Both the position numbers and the translations under genes were made by a program. A DNA stretch of 64,000 bases, from positions 1 to 64,000 of the forward strand of contig WNDX01000003.1 in NCBI GenBank assembly GCA_009914615.1, written 5' to 3'. The notes beneath the pieces were generated by a model. The model saw nothing but the letters and a program-made list of their open reading frames with translations. It ran no database searches and had not been told where the DNA came from. Positions within the stretch are counted from its first letter, which is position 1. The number at the start of each line of letters is the position of its first letter. This document shows positions 27,491-41,856 of the stretch, in pieces. The DNA is from Herbaspirillum frisingense. GTDB lineage: Bacteria; Pseudomonadota; Gammaproteobacteria; Burkholderiales; Burkholderiaceae_D.

Positions 27491-28339
27491 ATGAACCGCA
27501 AGACAGAACAAGAACAGCCGACCTTCCCGCAGCATTCTCCGCTGGGCCGTCGCCGCCTGCGCAACGCGCAGTTCGCCGGCCTGGCCACGCTGGCCGCGGC
27601 CGGCGCGCTGCTGGCCATCGCCGTGATCGCGCCGGCCCAGGCGGCCGAAGAAGCGCCGGCGGCCGATGCGTCGCCGCTGCACCTGACCGGCAACATCGGC
27701 GTGGTCAGCCAATACATCTTCCGCGGCACCACCCAGACCAACGAAAAGCCGGCGCTGCAAGGCGGCTTCGACCTCAACCATGACAACGGCCTGTACGCCG
27801 GCGTCTGGCTGTCCAACGTGAGCTGGATCTCCGATACCAATCCGGCCGCCTCGGCCAGCCTGGAGGCCGACGTCTACGGCGGCTGGAAGCCGGCCCTCAC
27901 CGACTGGCTCAGTGGCGACATCGGCGTGCTGCACTACGCCTATCCCGGCAGCTATCCGTCCGGCATGACCAAACCCGACACCACCGAGCTCTACCTCGGC
28001 CTGGACGCCAAGTGGATCGCCTTCAAGTATTCGTACAGCACCGGCAACACCTTCGGCAACCCCGACACCAGCGGCAGCACCTATGCCGACCTGAGCGTGA
28101 ACCATGAACTGTTCGCCGGCATCAACGGCATGGTCCACATCGGCCGCCAGCGCTACACCGGACCCAACTCGTCGGCGCTGTCCTATACCGACTGGAAGAT
28201 CGGCCTTAGCCGCGACTTCTCCGGCTACGTGCTGGGCGTGGCCTATACCGACACCAACGCGTCCGACGCCGGCTACACCATCCGCGGCAAGAACATCGGC
28301 CGCAGCCAGGTGGTGCTGTCGCTGAACAAGACCTTCTGA
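27491..28339 (+). CDS. TorF-family putative porin (Gcw_chp-like)
   Basis: LTGNIGVVSQYIFRGTTQTNEKPALQGGFDLNHDNGLYAGVWLSNVSW...; C-terminal VVLSLNKTF. Confidence 0.88.
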   Translation: MNRKTEQEQPTFPQHSPLGRRRLRNAQFAGLATLAAAGALLAIAVIAPAQAAEEAPAADASPLHLTGNIGVVSQYIFRGTTQTNEKPALQGGFDLNHDNGLYAGVWLSNVSWISDTNPAASASLEADVYGGWKPALTDWLSGDIGVLHYAYPGSYPSGMTKPDTTELYLGLDAKWIAFKYSYSTGNTFGNPDTSGSTYADLSVNHELFAGINGMVHIGRQRYTGPNSSALSYTDWKIGLSRDFSGYVLGVAYTDTNASDAGYTIRGKNIGRSQVVLSLNKTF

Positions 28340-30068: not shown

Positions 30069-30779
30069 TCATCCCCCCACGACTTCCGCCACCCGATACC
30101 CCACCCCGATCTCGGTCAGGATATGCACCGGCTGCGCGGCGTCGCGCTCCAGCTTCTGGCGCAGGCGCTGCATGTAGATGCGCAGGTAATGGTGATCTTC
30201 CGCATGCGACGGCCCCCAGCCGGCCACCAGCAGTTGCCGGTGCGTGATCACGCGGCCGGCGTCGCGCAGCAGCGTGGCCAGCAGGCGGTATTCGATCTGG
30301 GTCAGGTGCAGCGCTTCGCCGTTGCGGGTCACGCTGCGCGCGGGCAGATCGACCACCACCTCGCCCAGCCGATAGCGGCCGCTGGGCTTACCTTCGCCGG
30401 AGGCGCGCGCGTGGCGGCGCAACTGGGCGCGCATGCAGGCCAGCAGTTCGGGCATGCCGAAGGGCTTGACCAGGTAGTCGTCGGCGCCAGCGTCGAGCGC
30501 TTCGACCTTTTCCGACTCCTGGGTGCGGGCCGAGAGAATGACGATGGGCACGCTGCTCCAGCTGCGGATCTCGGCGATGACTTGCTTGCCGTCGCTGTCG
30601 GGCAGGCCGAGATCGAGGATCACCAGGTCCGGCTTGCGGGTCCCGGCTTCGGTCACGCCTTCACGCGCCGTCCGTGCTTCGTGGACGATGAAGCCTTCCT
30701 GCTCCAGCGCGCTTTTCACCAGCTTGCGGATGTGCGGGTCGTCTTCGATGAATACGATGTTGCCTGCGTGTTCCTGCAT
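30069..30779 (-). CDS. kdpE: KdpE response regulator
   Basis: IVFIEDDPHIRKLVKSALEQEGF...LVKPFGMPELLACMRAQLRRH...LTQIEYRLLATLLRDAGRVITHRQLL; adjacent to kdpD. Confidence 0.95.
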   Translation of the reverse strand: MQEHAGNIVFIEDDPHIRKLVKSALEQEGFIVHEARTAREGVTEAGTRKPDLVILDLGLPDSDGKQVIAEIRSWSSVPIVILSARTQESEKVEALDAGADDYLVKPFGMPELLACMRAQLRRHARASGEGKPSGRYRLGEVVVDLPARSVTRNGEALHLTQIEYRLLATLLRDAGRVITHRQLLVAGWGPSHAEDHHYLRIYMQRLRQKLERDAAQPVHILTEIGVGYRVAEVVGG

Positions 30780-30789
30780 GTTGTTGTCC

Positions 30790-33543
30790 TCATTCTTCCG
30801 GCAGGGCCGGCTGGGTTTCCACCGGCAGCGTGAAGCAGACGCTGGCGCCCTGCCCGGCTTCCTGCGGCGCGATCCAGATCTTGCCCTGGTGGGCCTCGAC
30901 GATGGCGCGGCAGATCGCCAGGCCCAGGCCGACGCCGGGGGTGCTGGATTCATTGTCGCCGCGCGTGAATTTTTCAAAGGCATGCTGCGCCATGGCGGGC
31001 GGGAAACCGCGACCATGGTCGCAGACGCAGACCTTGACCTGTGCGCCCCCCTCGCCGTCCTCGACATGGGCAGTGACGGTGATGCCGCTGCCGGGTGGCG
31101 AATACTTGACCGCGTTCTCCACCAGATTGGCGAAGACACGTTCCAGCAGCACCGCGTCCACCCGCAGCAGCGGCAGGTCGGCGCGGATGCGGGTCTCGAC
31201 GCTGCGACCTTCCAGCGCCTTGGCGAGCAGACGCAGCGCCGAGCCGATCAGTTCTTCCAGCGCGTTCCATTGGCGGTTCAGCGTGACCACGCCAGCCTGC
31301 AGGCGCGCCATGTCGAGCAGGTTGTTCATCAGGCCGACCATCTTCTGCGACTGTTCGCTGATGGTGCGCGCCATGGCGCGGGCATCGTCGTCCAGCCGGG
31401 CGTTGGCGGCCAGCACGTCGGCGCTGCCCACCAGCGAGGTCAGCGGCGTGCGCAGGTCGTGCGAGATGGCCGACAGCAGCGAGTTGCGCAGGCGCTCAGA
31501 TTCCATCGTCACCAGAGCATCCTGGGCCACTTCGGCATAGTGCAGGCGTTCGATTGCCATGGCGATCTGGGAGCAGAAGATTTCCAGCATCTGGCGGTTC
31601 TCGGGCAGCGCCAACTGGGCGGCCGCCAATTGGCGCTCCTCCTCGCTGGGCGCCTCGATGGCGAAGGCCAGCACCCCGCGGGTGCGCATGGTGGCCGTGA
31701 GTGGCAGATAAAGCGCGGCCGCCGAAGGCAGGGTGGCGGTGCCCTTGCCGGCCGCCTGGCCGTTGTCATAGACCCATTGCGCGACGCCTTCATCGACGCT
31801 ACGCAGCACGTGAGCGCCGCCGGCGTCCTGCTCGGGCTCGGCCAAGCGCAGTTGGTCGGCGCTGTCCGGCAGGAAAAAGGCGATGCGCGCGCCGAACACG
31901 GCGGCCAGGTGGCGGCGGCCGATTTCCAGGATCTGGTCCAGCGTCAGCAGCGCCGACAATTCCTTGCCCAGCATGTAGAGATTGCCGGCGCGCGCTTCGC
32001 GCTGCATGGCCACGCTGGCCTGGCGGCGCAGGCGCGCGGTCAGCGAGCTGATGAACAGCGAGACCGCCAGCATGACCACCAGCGTCAACAGGTATTGCGC
32101 GTCCGATACCGAGATGGAAAAGCGCGGCGCGACGAAGAAGAAATCGAAGCTCAGCACCGATAGCACCGAGACCAGTATCGATGCCGAACGGCCGTAGCGC
32201 ATCGCCACCAGCATCACCCCGACCAGGTAAAGCATGATGACGTTGGCCGGATGCAATTTGCCGTCCAGCACGAAGGCGATCGCCGTGGTGGCGGCGCAGC
32301 TTGCCACCGCCCACAAGGTGCCGCGCGTGCGGCGGCGGCGCGTGAGCAAGGCTTCGGCCACCGTGGCTGCGCTATCGACGGACTCGTCGGCATGGCGCGC
32401 GGCGCGGCTGCGCGCGACCGTGTAGATATCGATATCCTCGCCGGAACCGGCGATGCGCTGCGACAGCGAGCCGGCCGGCCAGCGCAGCCATCGGCGCAGG
32501 CCGCCGCTTTCCTGCCCGATCACCAGCTTGCCGGCATTGCGGCCCTTGGCGAATTGCAGCAGCGCGCCGGCCAGGTCTTCGCCGCTGATGCTGGCGGTTT
32601 CCGCGCCCAGCGATTGCGCCAGCTTGAGATAGCCGACCACCCGTTCACGGCCGGCCATGGCCTGGCGGTCGCCCGGCAGGTCGACGTGCACCGCCAGCCA
32701 TTCGGCCTGCAGCTTGGCGGCCAGGCGCGCGGCTTCGCGGATCAGGCGCTCCTCGCCCGGGCCGCTGCCGATGGCGGCGACGATGCGTTCGCGCGCCTGC
32801 CACAACTGGGCGATGGAACGGTCGGCGCGGTATTCGCGCATGTCGGCATCGACGCGATCGGCGGTGCGGCGCAAGGCGATCTCGCGCAACGCGATCAGAT
32901 TGCCCTTGCGGAAGAAATTGCGGCCGGCCTTCTCGGCCTGCTGCGGCAGATAGACCTTGCCTTGCTTCAAACGGGCCAGCAGTTCGTCGGGCGGGATGTC
33001 CACCAGCATGACGTCGTCGGCCTCGTCGAACACGTGATCGGGCACGGTCTCGAAGACGCGGATGCCGGTGATCTGGCCGACCACGTCGTTCAGGCTTTCA
33101 ATGTGCTGGACGTTGAGGGTGGTATAGACGTCGATGCCGGCGCGCAGCAGTTCATCGATGTCTTGCCAGCGCTTGGCGTGGCGCGAGCCTGGAACGTTGG
33201 AATGCGCCAGTTCGTCCACCAGCATGACGCGTGGCTTGCGTTCCAGCGCGGCGTCGAGATCGAACTCGGGCAACTGGCGATCGCGATAGGCCACCATGCG
33301 CATGGGCAGACGCTCGATGCCCGCCAGTTGGGCTTCGGTATCGGCGCGGCCATGGGTCTCGACCACGCCGGCGACCACGTCGGTCTCTTGCGCGGCCAGC
33401 GCCTGCGCCGCTTCCAGCATGGCGAAGGTCTTGCCGACGCCCGCCGAGAAGCCGAAGAAGACCTTCAGGCGGCCGCGCGCCTGGCGCTCTTCGTCGCGCA
33501 TCACGCGTTCCAGCAGGTCGTCGGGATCGGGGCGGGTGTTCAT
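30790..33543 (-). CDS. kdpD: KdpD sensor histidine kinase
   Basis: GRLKVFFGFSAGVGKTFAMLEAAQ...VDELAHSNVPGSRHAKRWQDIDELL...SAISHDLRTPLTSLVGSADVL. Confidence 0.97.
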   Translation of the reverse strand: MNTRPDPDDLLERVMRDEERQARGRLKVFFGFSAGVGKTFAMLEAAQALAAQETDVVAGVVETHGRADTEAQLAGIERLPMRMVAYRDRQLPEFDLDAALERKPRVMLVDELAHSNVPGSRHAKRWQDIDELLRAGIDVYTTLNVQHIESLNDVVGQITGIRVFETVPDHVFDEADDVMLVDIPPDELLARLKQGKVYLPQQAEKAGRNFFRKGNLIALREIALRRTADRVDADMREYRADRSIAQLWQARERIVAAIGSGPGEERLIREAARLAAKLQAEWLAVHVDLPGDRQAMAGRERVVGYLKLAQSLGAETASISGEDLAGALLQFAKGRNAGKLVIGQESGGLRRWLRWPAGSLSQRIAGSGEDIDIYTVARSRAARHADESVDSAATVAEALLTRRRRTRGTLWAVASCAATTAIAFVLDGKLHPANVIMLYLVGVMLVAMRYGRSASILVSVLSVLSFDFFFVAPRFSISVSDAQYLLTLVVMLAVSLFISSLTARLRRQASVAMQREARAGNLYMLGKELSALLTLDQILEIGRRHLAAVFGARIAFFLPDSADQLRLAEPEQDAGGAHVLRSVDEGVAQWVYDNGQAAGKGTATLPSAAALYLPLTATMRTRGVLAFAIEAPSEEERQLAAAQLALPENRQMLEIFCSQIAMAIERLHYAEVAQDALVTMESERLRNSLLSAISHDLRTPLTSLVGSADVLAANARLDDDARAMARTISEQSQKMVGLMNNLLDMARLQAGVVTLNRQWNALEELIGSALRLLAKALEGRSVETRIRADLPLLRVDAVLLERVFANLVENAVKYSPPGSGITVTAHVEDGEGGAQVKVCVCDHGRGFPPAMAQHAFEKFTRGDNESSTPGVGLGLAICRAIVEAHQGKIWIAPQEAGQGASVCFTLPVETQPALPEE

Positions 33544-33666: not shown

Positions 33667-34281
33667 TTATCGCGTTGCATCCGCCTTGGGCATGGGCGCG
33701 GCATCATCCAGCGCCAGGTTCAGCTTGAGCACGTTCACGCGCGGCTCGCCGAACAGGCCCCACTGCGGCGACTCGCTATTGTCGCGGATCAGGGCGCGCA
33801 CCTTGTCCAGGCCGATGCCGCGCGCCTGCGCCACGCGCTGGGCCTGGTAGTCGGCGGCGTCCGGGCTGATGTGCGGGTCCAGGCCGCTGCCGGAGGCGGT
33901 CAGCAGGTCCATTGGAATCGGACGCTGGCTGTTGTCGCCGGCTTCGCGCAGGGCCTTGGCGCGATCTTCCGCGGCCTGCTTCAGGGCCGGATTGGTCGGG
34001 CCCAGGTTGCTGCCGCCGGAGGCCAGGCCGTTATTGGGGAAGGTGCCGCTGGCCGAAGGACGGCCCCAGAAATAGGCCGGACCGGTGAAGTTCTGGCCGA
34101 TCAGTTCGGAACCGACCGGCTCGCCCTTGCGTTCGATGATGCTGCCGTTGGCCTGCTTGGGGAAGAAGGCTTGCGCCAGGCCGGTGACGACGGCCGGGTA
34201 GATCCCGCCCAGCAGCACGCCCAGCAGGATGAACAAGGTCAGCGCGGGACGCAGCGTGCTCTTGGTGGTGGAGTGTTTCAT
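33667..34281 (-). CDS. kdpC: KdpC, potassium-transporting ATPase subunit C
   Basis: YFWGRPSASGTFPNNGLASGGSNLGPTNPAL...VNVLKLNLALD. Confidence 0.97.
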   Translation of the reverse strand: MKHSTTKSTLRPALTLFILLGVLLGGIYPAVVTGLAQAFFPKQANGSIIERKGEPVGSELIGQNFTGPAYFWGRPSASGTFPNNGLASGGSNLGPTNPALKQAAEDRAKALREAGDNSQRPIPMDLLTASGSGLDPHISPDAADYQAQRVAQARGIGLDKVRALIRDNSESPQWGLFGEPRVNVLKLNLALDDAAPMPKADATR

Positions 34282-34308: not shown

Positions 34309-36504
34309 TCAGACCAGGCCGAAAGCGGCCAGCAGCATGTCGATCAGCTTGATGCCCACGAACGGCACCAGCAGCCCGCCCACGCCGTAGATCAGCAGGT
34401 TGCGACGCAGCAGCACGGCCGCGCCCAGCGCGCGGTAGCGCACCCCGCGCAGCGCCAGCGGAATCAGGGCCACGATCACCAGGGCGTTGAAGATCACCGC
34501 CGACATGATGGCCGAGTCCGGGCTGGCCAGATGCATCACGTTGAGCGCGCCCAGTTGCGGATAGGTGGCGGCGAACATGGCCGGGATGATGGCGAAGTAC
34601 TTGGCCACGTCGTTGGCGATGCTGAAGGTGGTCAGGCTGCCGCGCGTCATCAGCATCTGCTTGCCGATCTCGACGATCTCGATCAGCTTGGTCGGGTTGG
34701 AATCCAGATCGACCATGTTGCCGGCTTCCTTGGCGGCCTGGGTGCCGCTGTTCATGGCCACGGCGACGTCGGCCTGGGCCAGCGCCGGCGCGTCGTTGGT
34801 GCCGTCGCCGGTCATCGCCACCAGCTTGCCTTCGGCCTGGTGCTGGCGGATCAGGGCCAGCTTCTGCTCGGGCGTGGCTTCGGCCAGGAAATCATCGACG
34901 CCGGCCTCGGCGGCGATGGCGGCCGCGGTCAGGCGGTTGTCGCCGGTGATCATCACGGTCTTGATGCCCATGCGACGCAGTTCGCCGAAGCGTTCCTTGA
35001 TGCCGCCCTTGACGATGTCCTTCAGCTCCACCGTGCCGAGGATGCGGATGGGCGCGCCATTGTGGATGACCGCGGCCTCGTTGTTCCACTCGATCACCAC
35101 CAGCGGCGTGCCGCCGCGGCGGGCGATGGCGTCGATGTCGTTTTCGACCTGGCTGGGCAGGCGCTGGTCGGCCGAGCGCGCCAGCTTGCGGATGGCGTCG
35201 GCCGCGCCCTTGCGGATGCGACGGGTGCCGATGTCGATGCCGGAGACGCGGGTCTGCGCCGAGAACGGAATGAACTGCGCGCCCAGGCCGGCCATCTCGC
35301 GTTCACGCAGATTGAAGCGGTTCTTGGCCAGCACCACGATGCTGCGGCCTTCCGGCGTTTCGTCGGCCAGCGAGGCCAGTTGCGCCACGTCGGCCAGCTC
35401 ACGCTCGGACACGCCCGGCGCCGGCATGAAGGCGGCGGCCTGGCGGTTGCCCAGGGTGATGGTGCCGGTCTTGTCCAGCAGCAGCACATCGACGTCGCCG
35501 GCGGCTTCCACCGCGCGACCGGAGGTGGCAATCACGTTGGCCTGCATCATGCGGCTCATGCCGGCCACGCCGATGGCCGACAGCAGGCCGCCGATGGTGG
35601 TCGGGATCAGGCACACCAGCAACGCCACCAGAGCCGTCACCGAGACCGGCGAACCGGCGCCGGCGGCGCTCACCGAGAACAGCGAGAACGGCAGCAGGGT
35701 CACGGTGACCAACAGGAACACCAGGGTCAGCGCCACCAGCAGCAGCGTCAGCGCCAGTTCGTTGGGGGTCTTCTGGCGACGGGCGCCTTCGACCATGGCG
35801 ATCATGCGGTCGAGGAAGGCTTCGCCGGGGTTGACCGAGACGCGCACCACGATCCAGTCCGACAGCACGCGCGTGCCGCCGGTCACGGCCGAGAAGTCGC
35901 CGCCCGATTCACGGATCACCGGGGCCGATTCGCCGGTGATGGCGCTCTCGTCCACGGTGGCCACGCCATCGATGACGTCGCCGTCGGCCGGCACGGTGTC
36001 GCCGGCCTCGATCAGCACCAGGTCACCCTTGCGCAGGCTACCGCCTTCGACCGCTTCGCATTGGTCGGCGGAGACGGCGGCGCCCTGGATGCGCACCTGG
36101 TCGGAGCGGCGCAGCTTCTTGGCCATCACGCTCTTCTTGACGCCGCGCAGCGCGGCGGCCTGGGCCTTGCTGCGGCCCTCGGCCAGCGCCTCGGCGAAGT
36201 TGGCGAACAGCACCGTGAACCACAGCCAGGCGGCCACGGCGAAGATGAAGCCGGCCGGCGCCTCGCCCTTGCCCACCAGGGCCTGGATGAACAGCAGCGT
36301 GGTCAGGATGCTGCCGAGGTAGACCACGAACATCACCGGATTGCGCCATTGCACGCGCGGCGACAGCTTGCGGAAGGAATCGGCCAGGGCCGGCTTGACG
36401 ATCTTGGGATCGAACATCCAGCGCGCGGTCTGCGCGGCGGACGGGATGACGTCGGGCGCGGCGTTGGCGACGCCCGGCTGGGTATGGGGAGAAGGGGTAG
36501 TCAT
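34309..36504 (-). CDS. kdpB: KdpB, potassium-transporting P-type ATPase subunit B
   Basis: [53 protein letters not shown]. Confidence 0.98.
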
Positions 36505-36568: not shown

Positions 36569-38350
36569 TTACATCGCCAACATCTGCAGGTGTTCCACCA
36601 CCGGGCCCAGGGCCAGGGCCGGCACATAGGTCAGCGCGCCGACCAGGATCACCGCGCCGATCAACAGGGCCACGAACAGCGGGCCGTGCGTGGGCAGGGT
36701 GCCGGAGGTGGCCGACAGGCGCTTCTTGCCCGCCAGCGAACCGGCCATCGCCAGCACCGGCACGATGATGCCGAAGCGGCCCAGCCACATCGCGATGCCG
36801 GTGGTGACGTTGTAGTAAGGCGTGTTGGCCGAAAGCCCCGCGAAGGCGCTGCCGTTGTTGTTGGCGGCCGAGCTGAAGGCGTACAGGATCTCGCTGAAGC
36901 CGTGCGCGCCGGGGTTGGCGATGCCCGCCAGGCCGTTCTCCACCATCACCGAGATGGCGGTGAAGATCAGCACCAGCGCCGGCGTCATGAGGATGGCGAT
37001 GGACATCATCTTCATGTCGAACACGCCGATCTTCTTGCCCAGGTATTCCGGCGTGCGACCGATCATCAGGCCGGCGATGAACACCGCCAGCACCGCAAAG
37101 ATCAGCATGCCGTACAGGCCGGCGCCGACGCCGCCGTAGATCACCTCGCCCAGCTGCATCTGCAGCGTCGGGATCAGGCCGCCCAGCGGCGACAGCGAGT
37201 CATGCATGGCATTGACCGCGCCGCAGGAGGCCGCCGTGGTGATCGCCGCGAACAGCGCCGAGGCGGTGATGCCGAAACGGGTTTCCTTGCCTTCCATCAT
37301 GCTCGGCCCCGAGGCGTGCAGCGAGGCCAGCATGGTGTTGGGCTGCGACTCGAAGTACATCAGCACCAGCGTCATCGCCACGAACAGGATGGTCATCGAG
37401 GCCAGGATGGCCCAGCCTTGGCGGCGGTCGCCGACCAGCACGCCGAAGCTGGTGCACAGCGCGGCGGGGATGATCAGGATCGCCAGCATTTCCAGGAAGT
37501 TGGACAGCGGGGTCGGGTTCTCATACGGGTGCGCCGAGTTGGCGTTGAAGAAACCGCCGCCGTTGGTGCCCAGCATCTTGATCGCCTCCTGCGAGGCTAC
37601 CGGGCCCATGGGCAGGGTCTGCTTGTCGGTGCTCTGGGCCTCGGTCAACGGTTCGCCCTTGGCATCCTTCAGCGGTTGGCCGGCGGCGTCCAGCTTGGGC
37701 ACGGTGTAGTTGGTGACTTCCAGCGTCTTCACCTCCTGGTAGGGACGGAAGTTCTGGATGCTGCCCTGCTGCACCAGCACCAGCGCCAGCACCACCGACA
37801 TCGGCAGCAGCACATACAGCGAAGAGCGCGTCATATCGACCCAGAAGTTGCCGATGCTCTTGCTGCTGTGGCGCGCAAAACCGCGGATCAGCGCGAAGGC
37901 GATGGCGATGCCGGTCGCGGCCGAGACGAAGTTCTGCACCGCCAGCGCCGCCATCTGCGTCAGGTAGCTCATGGTCGATTCGCCGACATAGCCTTGCCAA
38001 TTGGTATTGGCGACAAAGCTGATGGCGGTGTTGAACGAGGAATCGGTGCTGACGTTGCCCAGGCCCTGCGGGTTCAGCGGCAGCCATTGCTGCACGCGCT
38101 GCAGGCCATAGACGAAGATCAGGCCGAGGAAGTTGAACAGCACGGCCGCAATGGCGTACTGCTTCCAATCCATCTCGGACTCGCGGCTGATGCCGCACAG
38201 GCGATAGAACACGCGCTCGACGCCGCCGAACAGGCGGTTCACGCGCGACTTGCCTTCCATCACGCGGGCGATGTACCAACCGAGCGGCACCGAAAGGACC
38301 AGCAGCACGGCCAGGTAGAGGGCCAGCTGGATGTAGTTGTTGCCGTCCAT
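36569..38350 (-). CDS. kdpA: KdpA, potassium-transporting ATPase subunit A
   Basis: [48 protein letters not shown]. Confidence 0.98.
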
Positions 38351-38351
38351 G

Positions 38352-38441
38352 TCAGAAATCCTCCGGCTTGATCAGGGCATAGACCAGATACAGCAGCAGG
38401 GCGACCGAAACGGCCAGGCCGAGCAGATACATGGCGTTCAT
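38352..38441 (-). CDS. kdpF: KdpF small subunit (29 aa)
   Basis: MNAMYLLGLAVSVALLLYLVYALIKPEDF immediately upstream of kdpA. Confidence 0.93.
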   Translation of the reverse strand: MNAMYLLGLAVSVALLLYLVYALIKPEDF

Positions 38442-38554
38442 TTTTTCTCGCCTTCCTGCCGTTCCAGACGGCTGCACAGGGCGACGAAGGCCCACATCGA
38501 GATGCCGCACAAGAGCAGCATGCCCACATAGAGAAAGTCCATTTCCCACTCCAT
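38438..38554 (-). CDS. 38-aa single-TM microprotein upstream of kdpF (not in the ORF track)
   Basis: MEWEMDFLYVGMLLLCGISMWAFVALCSRLERQEGEKK*; its TGA overlaps the kdpF ATG (ATGA). Confidence 0.8.
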   Translation of the reverse strand: MEWEMDFLYVGMLLLCGISMWAFVALCSRLERQEGEKK

Positions 38555-38880
38555 TGTTGACGTTGTTCAATCCGTTCCTGCGAGGGAATCGGAGACAGTC
38601 GAACGATAGAGGGCGGGGCGTTAAATCCTGGTAAAACTATGGGGAGGGGGTGTAAACAAGATGTAAACAGAATGACCGGGGCTGGTGATGGCGGCCGGGG
38701 AAACGGGCGTGCCGGGCGGCTCGATGCGACTGCTCCGATACGGTTCGGCTCGTGGTGGCGGTATTTCGCTTTGGGGATGGTGCAGGAACCGGCGCAGGTC
38801 AGCCCCAGCGTCGTTCAACGGACTGTCGATTCGCAACGAACGCCACTGGGTCCCGGCGTGCGCCGGGACGACGGTGGGTG

Positions 38881-39447
38881 AGTCAGCGGAGTCCATGAAA
38901 ATAAGAGATCTACTCGGCGCCTCTGCCCGCGACGCCGGTTGCAACGACAAGTTGCCCCGCCCCCCGCTCCGTCGTCCTGACGAAAGTCAGGACCCAGCGT
39001 CGTTCAACGGACTATCGATTCGCGACGAACGCCACTGGATCCCGGCGTGCACCGGGACGGCGGTGGGTGAGTCAGCGGAGTCCATGAAAATAAGAGATCT
39101 ACACGGCGCCTCTGCCCGCGACGCCGGTTGCAACGACAAGTTGCCCCGCCCCCCGCTCCGTCGTCCTGACGAAAGTCAGGACCCAGCGTCGTTCAACGGA
39201 CTATCGATTCGCGACGAACGCCACTGGATCCCGGCGTGCACCGGGACGGCGGTGGGTGAGTCAGCGGAGTCCATGAAAATAAGAGATCTACACGGCGCCT
39301 CTGCCCGCGACGCCGGTTGCAACGACAAGTTGCCCCGCCCCCCGCTCCGTCGTCCTGACGAAAGTCAGGACCCAGCGTCGTTCAACGGACTATCGATTCG
39401 CGACGAACGCCACTGGATCCCGGCGTGCGCCGGGACGACGGTAGATA
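38881..39447. repeat. Three tandem 189-bp repeat units, plus a partial fourth (about 38806-38880)
   Basis: AGTCAGCGGAGTCCATGAAAATAAGAGATCTAC... begins at 38881, 39070 and 39259 (exact 189-bp spacing); units nearly identical. Confidence 0.95.
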
Positions 39448-39510
39448 AATTATCGAAGCGGACAGCAAAAGGTAGGAGAAGCAGAAACGCAGGAGAAAGA
39501 ACGAAGGCGG

Positions 39511-39554
39511 AAGAAGAAGAAGAAGAAGAAGAAGAAGAAGAAGAAGAAGAAGAA
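39511..39554. repeat. (AAG)n microsatellite, about 14.7 units
   Basis: Uninterrupted AAG run read directly. Confidence 0.95.
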
Positions 39555-39626: not shown

Positions 39627-41856
39627 TCACGCATCCGTGATCTTGCCCACCTCGACCCGGTTCTTGCCCCGGCGCTTGGCCGCGTACATGGCCTTGTCGG
39701 CCATCGCCAGCAGTTCTTCGGGCCCGATTTCGCCGTCTTCGTCCGGCAGGTAGACCGCTACGCCGATGCTGCTCGAGACGTGCACCCGGGAGTGCGTCAG
39801 TTCGAATGGCACACGCATCGCGTTGAGGATCTTGTCGGCCACGTTGAGCGCATCCTGCTGGGTCTGCAGGCTTTCCAGGATCACCACGAACTCGTCGCCG
39901 GCGAGACGGGCGACGGTATCGACGTCGCGCACTGCGCTCTGCAGGCGCTGCGCGAACTGGATCAGCAATTCATCGCCGGCTTCGTGGCCGTAGCGGTCGT
40001 TGACGCCCTTGAAGCCGTCGATGTCCATGAAGAAGCTCATGCGCGCGGCGCGCGCGCATCATGCCTTCGGGCAGGCGGTCGCTGAAGGCGCGGCGGTTGG
40101 GCAGGCTGGTCAGCATGTCGGTCAGCGCCAGCTCGCGCATCTGGTCGCGGAAGGCCAGGCGCTCGGTGATGTCGTGCAGGAAGGCGATGAACAGGTGGCC
40201 GTTGTGGCGCTTGACGTGGCCCACGGTGATCTCCACCGGCAGCTCGTGGCCGTCGTGATGCAGGGCTTGCAGCTCGATGCGGTTGTTGATCACGACGCTG
40301 GTGCCGTGCTCCAGGAATTCTTCCATGCCGCGGTAGTGCGCGGCGCGCATGTCTTGCGGGATGAGCAGCTCGGCCATCTGGCGGCCGATCGCGGCGGCGC
40401 GCTGCCAGCCCAGCAACAGCTCGGCCTGGCGGTTCCATTCGACGATGACGCCGTTCTCGTCGGCGGCGATGAAGGCGTCCTGGGCGTTTTCCAGGATCGC
40501 GCGCAATTCGGCCGCGCTTTCTTCCAGCTTGATCTGGTTGGCGTGCTGCACGTCCAGCGACTGCTGCAGCGCGGTGGCGGTTTCGTGCAGACGGCTGGTG
40601 CGCTCGGCCACGCGCTCTTCCAGGCTTTCGTTGAGCGAACGCACTTCGCGCAGGTAGCGCTCCTCGCGCTCGACCATGTTGACCAGCGTGGAGGACAGCA
40701 GCTGCACTTCGCGGTAACTGTTGACCAGCGGGATGGGCACATCCTGCATGCCCAGCGCGCGCTGCTCCAGCGCAGCGGACAGGTTGTTGACCGGCGCCAC
40801 CAGGCGGCGCGTCAGCACATAGGCCAGGGTCACCAGCACCACGCCGATCAGCGCGCCCACCAGGATCACGCGGCGTTCCAGGTCGCGGAAGGCTTCCAGC
40901 GCCACGGTCTCGGGCTGGCGCACGATCACGCTCCATTTGAGCATCATGCGTTCGTCATGGCCGGTGCGCGAGAAGCCGGTGATGTAGCGGCGGCCGTCGG
41001 GCCAGCGCTCCACCACCGCGCCGCCGGCGGCGGCCTGCTGCGAGGCGCGGAAGCTGTCGCTGTTGATCTTCTTTTCTTCCAGTTCCTTGGGGCCGAGCAG
41101 CACGGTGCCGTCGGCGCGCACGATCAGGACTTCGACGTCATAGCGGTCGCCGGCCGGATTGAGCAGCTTGGACGCGATCTCGCGCGCCCAGGCCCAGGAC
41201 AGGTGCATGCCCATCACGCCCATGTAGCGGCCCTGCATGTCCAGCACCGGCATGGAGATATCGACGAAGCGCCAGGGCTCGGGCTGCGGCGGCAGCTTCT
41301 TTTCCAGCAGCAGGGCCGGATGGTAGTCGGCGGAGTAGGTGTTCTTCTGGCCTTCCTTGAACCACGGGCGCTCGCCCACGCTCTGGCCTTCCAGCAAGCC
41401 GTTGGTGGCCACCAGCACGGTGCCGTCGGGCTTGGCCATGCCTATCCACGCGTAGTTGGGAACGTTGGCCTGGAGTTCGTTGAGCACCGCGCGCATGCGC
41501 GGCAGATCCTTACCCGCGCGGATGGAGGGACGCGCCACCAGGATGCGCATGTCGATCTGGCGCTCGGTCATGCTGCGTTCGAGCGCGTCCTGCATCTGCC
41601 AGGCCAACTGCTTCAGACGCGTCTCGGCTTCCGAGCGTGCGTAACCGCGGGTGAACTGATCCACCAGGATCAGCACCGACACGGTTGTGATCATTACGGT
41701 AACAACCACCCCCAGCGTAATCAGCGATGACAGATTCGGTGGAGATGGGGCTTTTTTCTTATTCAATTGGACCAAAATGCGGCGATACGTCTGAATGCAT
41801 GACGGCTCCCCCTGTGAACCGCGTGTGTATACACGGCATCTTGCCAGATAGCTCAC
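39627..41856 (-). pseudogene. Membrane dCache-PAS-GGDEF protein (diguanylate cyclase), frameshifted near 40040-40060
   Basis: Sensor/PAS frame ends ...LTDMLTSLPNRRAFSDRLPEGMMRARRAHELLHGH; the second frame continues MSFFMDIDGFKGVNDRYGHEAGDELL...RDVDTVARLAGDEFVVIL. Span is 2230 nt (not a multiple of 3). Confidence 0.88.

Follow-up and report, generated by a model that had tools for sequence, protein, structure and literature searches.

The main high-affinity K+ pump of bacteria, KdpFABC, serves as a model P-type ATPase. Sensor kinases and P-type ATPases are often modulated by peptides of a single helix, and the kdp operon encodes one small protein of this build in KdpF, a probable accessory subunit of about 30 aa. 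In 1997 Treuner-Lange reportedly described, 5' of kdpA, a pair of small ORFs for putative hydrophobic peptides, and Schleussinger in 2006 is said to have named the operon of Alicyclobacillus acidocaldarius kdpZFABCN. To our knowledge, neither a function nor a wider family has been described for the kdpZ gene of A. acidocaldarius or Clostridium acetobutylicum, and it has apparently never been characterized. PMC5401905, citing Treuner-Lange (1997), gives the C. acetobutylicum genes as a single transcript, kdpZYABCXDE. In both species kdpZ (orfZ in C. acetobutylicum) is a small first kdp gene preceding the position of KdpF, and it is likened by position, not by sequence, to the Herbaspirillum frisingense ORF described below. 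Loci from Bacilli and some Clostridia carry the family of this ORF at the operon position of kdpZ, and the two earlier names probably denote the same gene. Because of this earlier naming the name KdpZ is suggested, and the gene is not claimed as one never seen before. Searches of an open-access literature collection found no study of it; within that collection, the pan-bacterial family, its tie to kdp and the standing of E. coli as an exception seem to be unreported.

The kdp operon of Herbaspirillum frisingense

The window analyzed is a stretch of 64,000 nucleotides of H. frisingense DNA (contig WNDX01000003.1), and all kdp genes in it lie on the minus strand. The small ORF is followed by kdpF (38352..38441, 29 aa; Pfam PF09604 at E=2.1e-10, and TIGR02115), kdpA (36569..38350, 593 aa; PF03814 at E=1.3e-244), kdpB (34309..36504, start inferred at MTTPSPH), kdpC (33667..34281, from position and sequence), the sensor kinase gene kdpD (30790..33543) and the response regulator gene kdpE (30069..30779), the last two recognized by sequence and with inferred starts. 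The motifs DKTGTIT and TGES identify kdpB. As the original prediction stated, the stop codon of the small ORF shares an ATGA with the start of kdpF (38438..38441, minus strand), an overlap that suggests translational coupling. The two frames differ, and a reading of the ORF as the hydrophobic beginning of an extended kdpF was abandoned for this reason.

The frame proposed originally, a 38-aa ORF at 38438..38554 (minus strand), holds, in that MEWEMDFLYVGMLLLCGISMWAFVALCSRLERQEGEKK is its exact translation and the frame is conserved, whereas its start probably does not. Translation most likely begins at the second ATG (38542) and not at 38554, giving a CDS at 38438..38542 and a 34-aa product, MDFLYVGMLLLCGISMWAFVALCSRLERQEGEKK, because a GGAG lies 6 nt 5' of the second ATG, the second ATG is kept in 28 of 28 aligned genus loci, and the first is missing in the second subclade. 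Three loci there (L025, L026 and L028) have an in-frame TAG just upstream of the second ATG, and the first ATG is not conserved outside subclade 1. The GGAG or GGGAG is conserved upstream of the second ATG in the aligned genus loci, and in many sister species the product, MWQTDFLY..., likewise starts at that codon. The 12 nt ahead of the second ATG (ATGGAGTGGGAA, 38543..38554, minus strand), comprising the first ATG and the "EWE" codons, are best read as the Shine-Dalgarno region of the gene and not as an N-terminus. The product has one hydrophobic segment, long enough for a helix, and ends in a charged tail, in agreement with the one transmembrane helix foreseen.

A KdpE-like box, TTTACATCTTGTTTACAC(CCCCTCCCC), i.e. 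TTTACATCTTGTTTACACCCCC, lies at 38650..38667 (minus strand), 125 nt upstream of the corrected start. It resembles the E. coli kdp sequence TTTATACTTTTTTTACACCCCGCCCG (TTTATACTTTTTTTACACCCCG), the KdpE site there, and the strict pattern TTTAYA-N(4-6)-TTTAYAC occurs in 14 of the 28 genus loci, with both subclades represented. From the position of this box upstream of the ORF, the ORF would be first in the transcript, and the earlier placement of it as the first gene of the operon is borne out, with kdpF, A, B, C, D and E following on the same strand.

Other features of the window were observed around the operon. Between it and the next gene lies a tandem array (38804-39442; period 189 bp, 3.4 copies, 98% matches), and just past this array a (GAA)15 run (39510-39554). 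A sensor/GGDEF-type gene (39627-41856, minus strand) is apparently split by a frameshift near 40000: ORF 41856..39970 loses frame within GGDEF and ORF 40040..39627 (MSFFMDIDGFKGVNDRYGHEAGDELL...) continues, which appears to reflect a sequencing error or a pseudogene. Beyond kdpE, an ORF on the plus strand (27491-28339) resembles a TorF-type porin by eye. An annotated TorF-family porin lies directly upstream of the kdp operon of Sphingomonas parapaucimobilis (L068:362-1213), and such a porin is a possible recurrent kdp neighbor.

Conservation and selection within the genus

Strong matches to the ORF were found in 28 of the 33 other genus genomes. Three further genomes with kdpA carry a diverged copy at the same place with the same ATGA overlap; of the remaining two, one is 63% complete and without kdpA, and the other has only part of kdpA, at the end of a contig. 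The frame is kept in every genus genome with a readable kdp 5' end (28 strong and 3 diverged). Comparison of substitution rates, suggested with the original prediction, indicates purifying selection: aggregate dN/dS (NG86) is 0.24 in subclade 1 (18 sequences) and 0.21 in subclade 2 (10 sequences), with values of 1.0-2.5 in the other sense frames, and none of 200 column shuffles reached a ratio as low in either subclade. In one antisense frame the ratio is also low in subclade 1 (0.35; 0.69 in subclade 2), as expected where sense and antisense degenerate positions fall together. Lack of conservation of frame or start across species had been named as the outcome that would speak against the gene, and the opposite was found, the frame being kept next to kdp across bacterial phyla. 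The ORF is almost certainly a real gene. Most records inspected leave it unannotated, as had been claimed, but a homolog in Mycetohabitans endofungorum (WP_212667346.1; L062:1308-1412, 34 aa) was called by PGAP under the name "potassium ABC transporter ATPase," which is misleading for so short a product.

A single-helix family beside kdp

KdpZ-like proteins are defined here as having 26-40 aa, one helix, an N-terminal (M)D, a mid-helix aromatic pair and a C-terminal end C[DE][RK]L, encoded directly 5' of kdpF or kdpA. Among 189 unique aligned sequences, D2 is present in 92% and the cysteine in 78%, the latter followed by D/E, R/K and L/I, and the two aromatic positions are F in 61% and 74%. 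The Herbaspirillum product belongs to the family by sequence (MD..., and C23 followed by SRL) and, with its ATGA overlap, by position; it retains the family-conserved D2, C23 and L26, and varies in having CG instead of the aromatic pair and S instead of D/E after the cysteine. It scores 48.5 and 45.6 bits against two KdpZ-like profiles, both of whose alignments include its own sequence. Periodicity of the conserved residues along one face of the helix was not significant (p=0.11-0.23). Scans of Pfam, NCBIfam and PHROG with the protein and 31 relatives gave chance-level matches only, and PDB searches by sequence and by profile returned no match covering the protein. The small cytochrome bd subunits CydX/CbdX/AppX (PRK14749, PDB 7oy2) are also single-helix accessories of a membrane complex and show weak similarity. 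Membership in that family was rejected, since the score is 15.6 bits against an equivalog cut-off of at least 57, the PDB match has E=0.54, and the gene is linked to kdp instead of cydAB/appBC. KdpZ-like proteins form a widespread, uncatalogued single-helix family.

The spread of the family was followed with KdpA as anchor, the regions 5' of KdpA loci being read for KdpZ-like ORFs. Loci were sampled from the order, the phylum, plasmids, named genome contigs, Actinomycetota, Bacillota and the phylum of a Melainabacteria locus (cyanobacteria). The profile was built from 23 seed sequences, iterated on the first locus set only and used at a threshold of 12 bits, with the opposite strand of these regions as antisense control in place of shuffled DNA. 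A relative scoring at least 12 bits lies directly 5' of kdpF or kdpA in 207 of 275 KdpA loci, over which the best antisense score is 9.7 bits; about a dozen additional loci have a similar ORF as judged by eye. Among 37 further loci (Bacilli, Clostridia and one Sinorhizobium, most not used in profile building), 24 score at least 10 bits and none does on the antisense strand. At least nine phyla are represented, among them Pseudomonadota, Acidobacteriota, Bacillota, Chloroflexota, Myxococcota, Actinomycetota, Gemmatimonadota and Deinococcota. Hosts include Rhizobium, Mesorhizobium, Bradyrhizobium, Sphingomonas, Methylobacterium, Myxococcus, Paenibacillus, Ruminiclostridium, Ktedonospora, Acidobacteria, Gemmatimonadetes and Deinococcus radiodurans. 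Most bacteria with a Kdp pump have a version of the gene at the same position.

Linkage to kdp is near-exclusive across phyla. Of 250 genomes of the order, 55 have a profile match at E<=1e-3, all of them within the 85 that are KdpA-positive (hypergeometric p ~1e-33), and every match adjoins kdpA except one, which lies within a 160-aa frame (G186:C102). Over the KdpA loci, a KdpZ-like ORF and kdpF occur together in 214, the KdpZ-like ORF alone in 5, kdpF alone in 35, and neither in 20. The distance to kdpF runs from -4 to +65 nt, with a single outlier of 307; the 4-nt overlap is found in 70 loci, in the order and beyond. In three loci the order is kdpF - kdpZ-like - kdpA, and the gene is therefore not a fixed leader of kdpF. 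On a KdpA tree (FastTree, with long branches present) its presence and absence require 15 changes; the gene is thus stable and probably old, with several losses.

Some lineages lack the gene. No KdpZ-like ORF was found between the KdpE site and kdpF of E. coli K-12, in Enterobacterales- and Pseudomonas-like loci (judged by KdpF), in a group of Bacillota-phylum loci, or on a haloarchaeal and a Lactiplantibacillus plasmid, and many cyanobacterial kdp loci have neither this ORF nor kdpF. Two Actinomycetota loci without a profile match (L245 and L246) have another small membrane ORF 5' of kdpF (for instance MIRILLWGLIVFLVLVIVLRQLANRRKR), which may be an unrelated replacement or a diverged one. A search of KdpA against the PDB (E<=1e-5) gave only E. 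coli-type matches (three near-identical 557-aa sequences), and the solved Kdp structures are all from E. coli, i.e. an organism without the gene. Since E. coli KdpFABC works without a KdpZ-like protein, the protein is dispensable for the basic mechanism.

Possible roles of the product

The product likely serves KdpFABC as an accessory subunit or modulator built of one helix. The first proposal, that it is an accessory subunit or regulator of Kdp and not KdpF itself, is the best-supported reading, the frame being conserved next to kdp and almost nowhere else. The ORF would encode a true membrane protein of 34 aa with a single span. As the first cistron of a KdpE-controlled kdp transcript, coupled to kdpF by ATGA, it would be translated along with the pump genes under K+ scarcity. 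Under the positive-inside rule, topology can be read from charge. The first five residues have a mean charge of -0.96 and the tail one of +0.65, and because of this acidic N-terminus and basic tail the helix most likely inserts N-out/C-in. Most likely it would also pack against KdpFABC as an additional helix and there stabilize or tune the pump, comparable to KdpF in E. coli KdpFABC, CydX in cytochrome bd and sarcolipin on SERCA. The gene travels with kdpF and has a KdpE-like box ahead of it, both in favor of such a role. Comparison of KdpA columns with loss of the gene yielded none surviving multiple-test correction, with 12 independent pairs, too few for the purpose. The eukaryotic peptides sarcolipin and phospholamban, which act on P2A ATPases (reviewed in PMC10654040), are alike in their proposed job as one-helix modulators of a P-type pump, by analogy only. 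A part in assembly or in sensing by KdpD would fit the linkage to kdp as well.

A regulatory rather than structural role, in which the helix would act on KdpD or inhibit the pump and thereby fine-tune K+ signaling, appears rather unlikely. MgrB acting on PhoQ and phospholamban on SERCA are possible analogs, KdpB is directly regulated by KdpD (PMC11018627), and kdpDE lie downstream in the same operon here. The gene, however, adjoins kdpF and kdpA, not kdpD. It is present in D. radiodurans, for which a split kdpD has been reported (PMC5716572, PMC11018627), whereas E. coli, with its full KdpDE, is without it; the gene therefore does not track full-length KdpD.

It is distinctly improbable that the ORF is a leader whose translation matters and whose product does not, opening the mRNA, feeding ribosomes to kdpF through the ATGA, or attenuating the operon. 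The 70 loci with a 4-nt overlap would suit such a leader, as would Caulobacter, where kdp shows both falling RNA reads past kdpF and Rho-dependent control (PMC8552747). The variable gap to kdpF and the three loci with kdpF in front do not, and between phyla it is amino acids, not just the frame, that are conserved, as seen in the cysteine and D2 and in a dN/dS of about 0.2.

That the protein is a duplicated or divergent KdpF is more doubtful still. The two proteins share size, position and the possession of one helix, but the KdpZ-like protein has no PF09604 or TIGR02115 match where kdpF itself matches readily, KdpZ-like ORFs score near 0 bits on a KdpF profile, and profile-profile comparison (hhalign) gives a probability of 8% over 1 aligned column. 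The C-terminal ends also differ, KdpF having [KR]PE.F, and the two genes stand side by side in the 214 loci with both. The claim of distinctness from KdpF is upheld on these grounds. A chance ORF in a GC-rich upstream region, where short ORFs are frequent (90 of at least 25 aa in the surrounding 10 kb), can safely be set aside given the conservation of frame, start and residues between species, the selection and the linkage to kdp.

E. coli, the source of all solved structures, is without the gene, and the KdpZ-like protein is thus probably an overlooked extra subunit or modulator of the pump. Whether the Kdp pump of most bacteria is a KdpZFABC complex of five subunits, with E. coli, Pseudomonas and some Clostridia lacking KdpZ and the textbook four-subunit pump and its structures representing a reduced form, we consider evenly balanced. 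A profile for KdpZ could be added to Pfam and NCBIfam, so that the gene is no longer missed or given the name of an ATPase. A conserved helix missing from the sole organism with structures would alter the view of KdpFABC composition, and KdpZ may explain differences between species in the activity or regulation of the pump.
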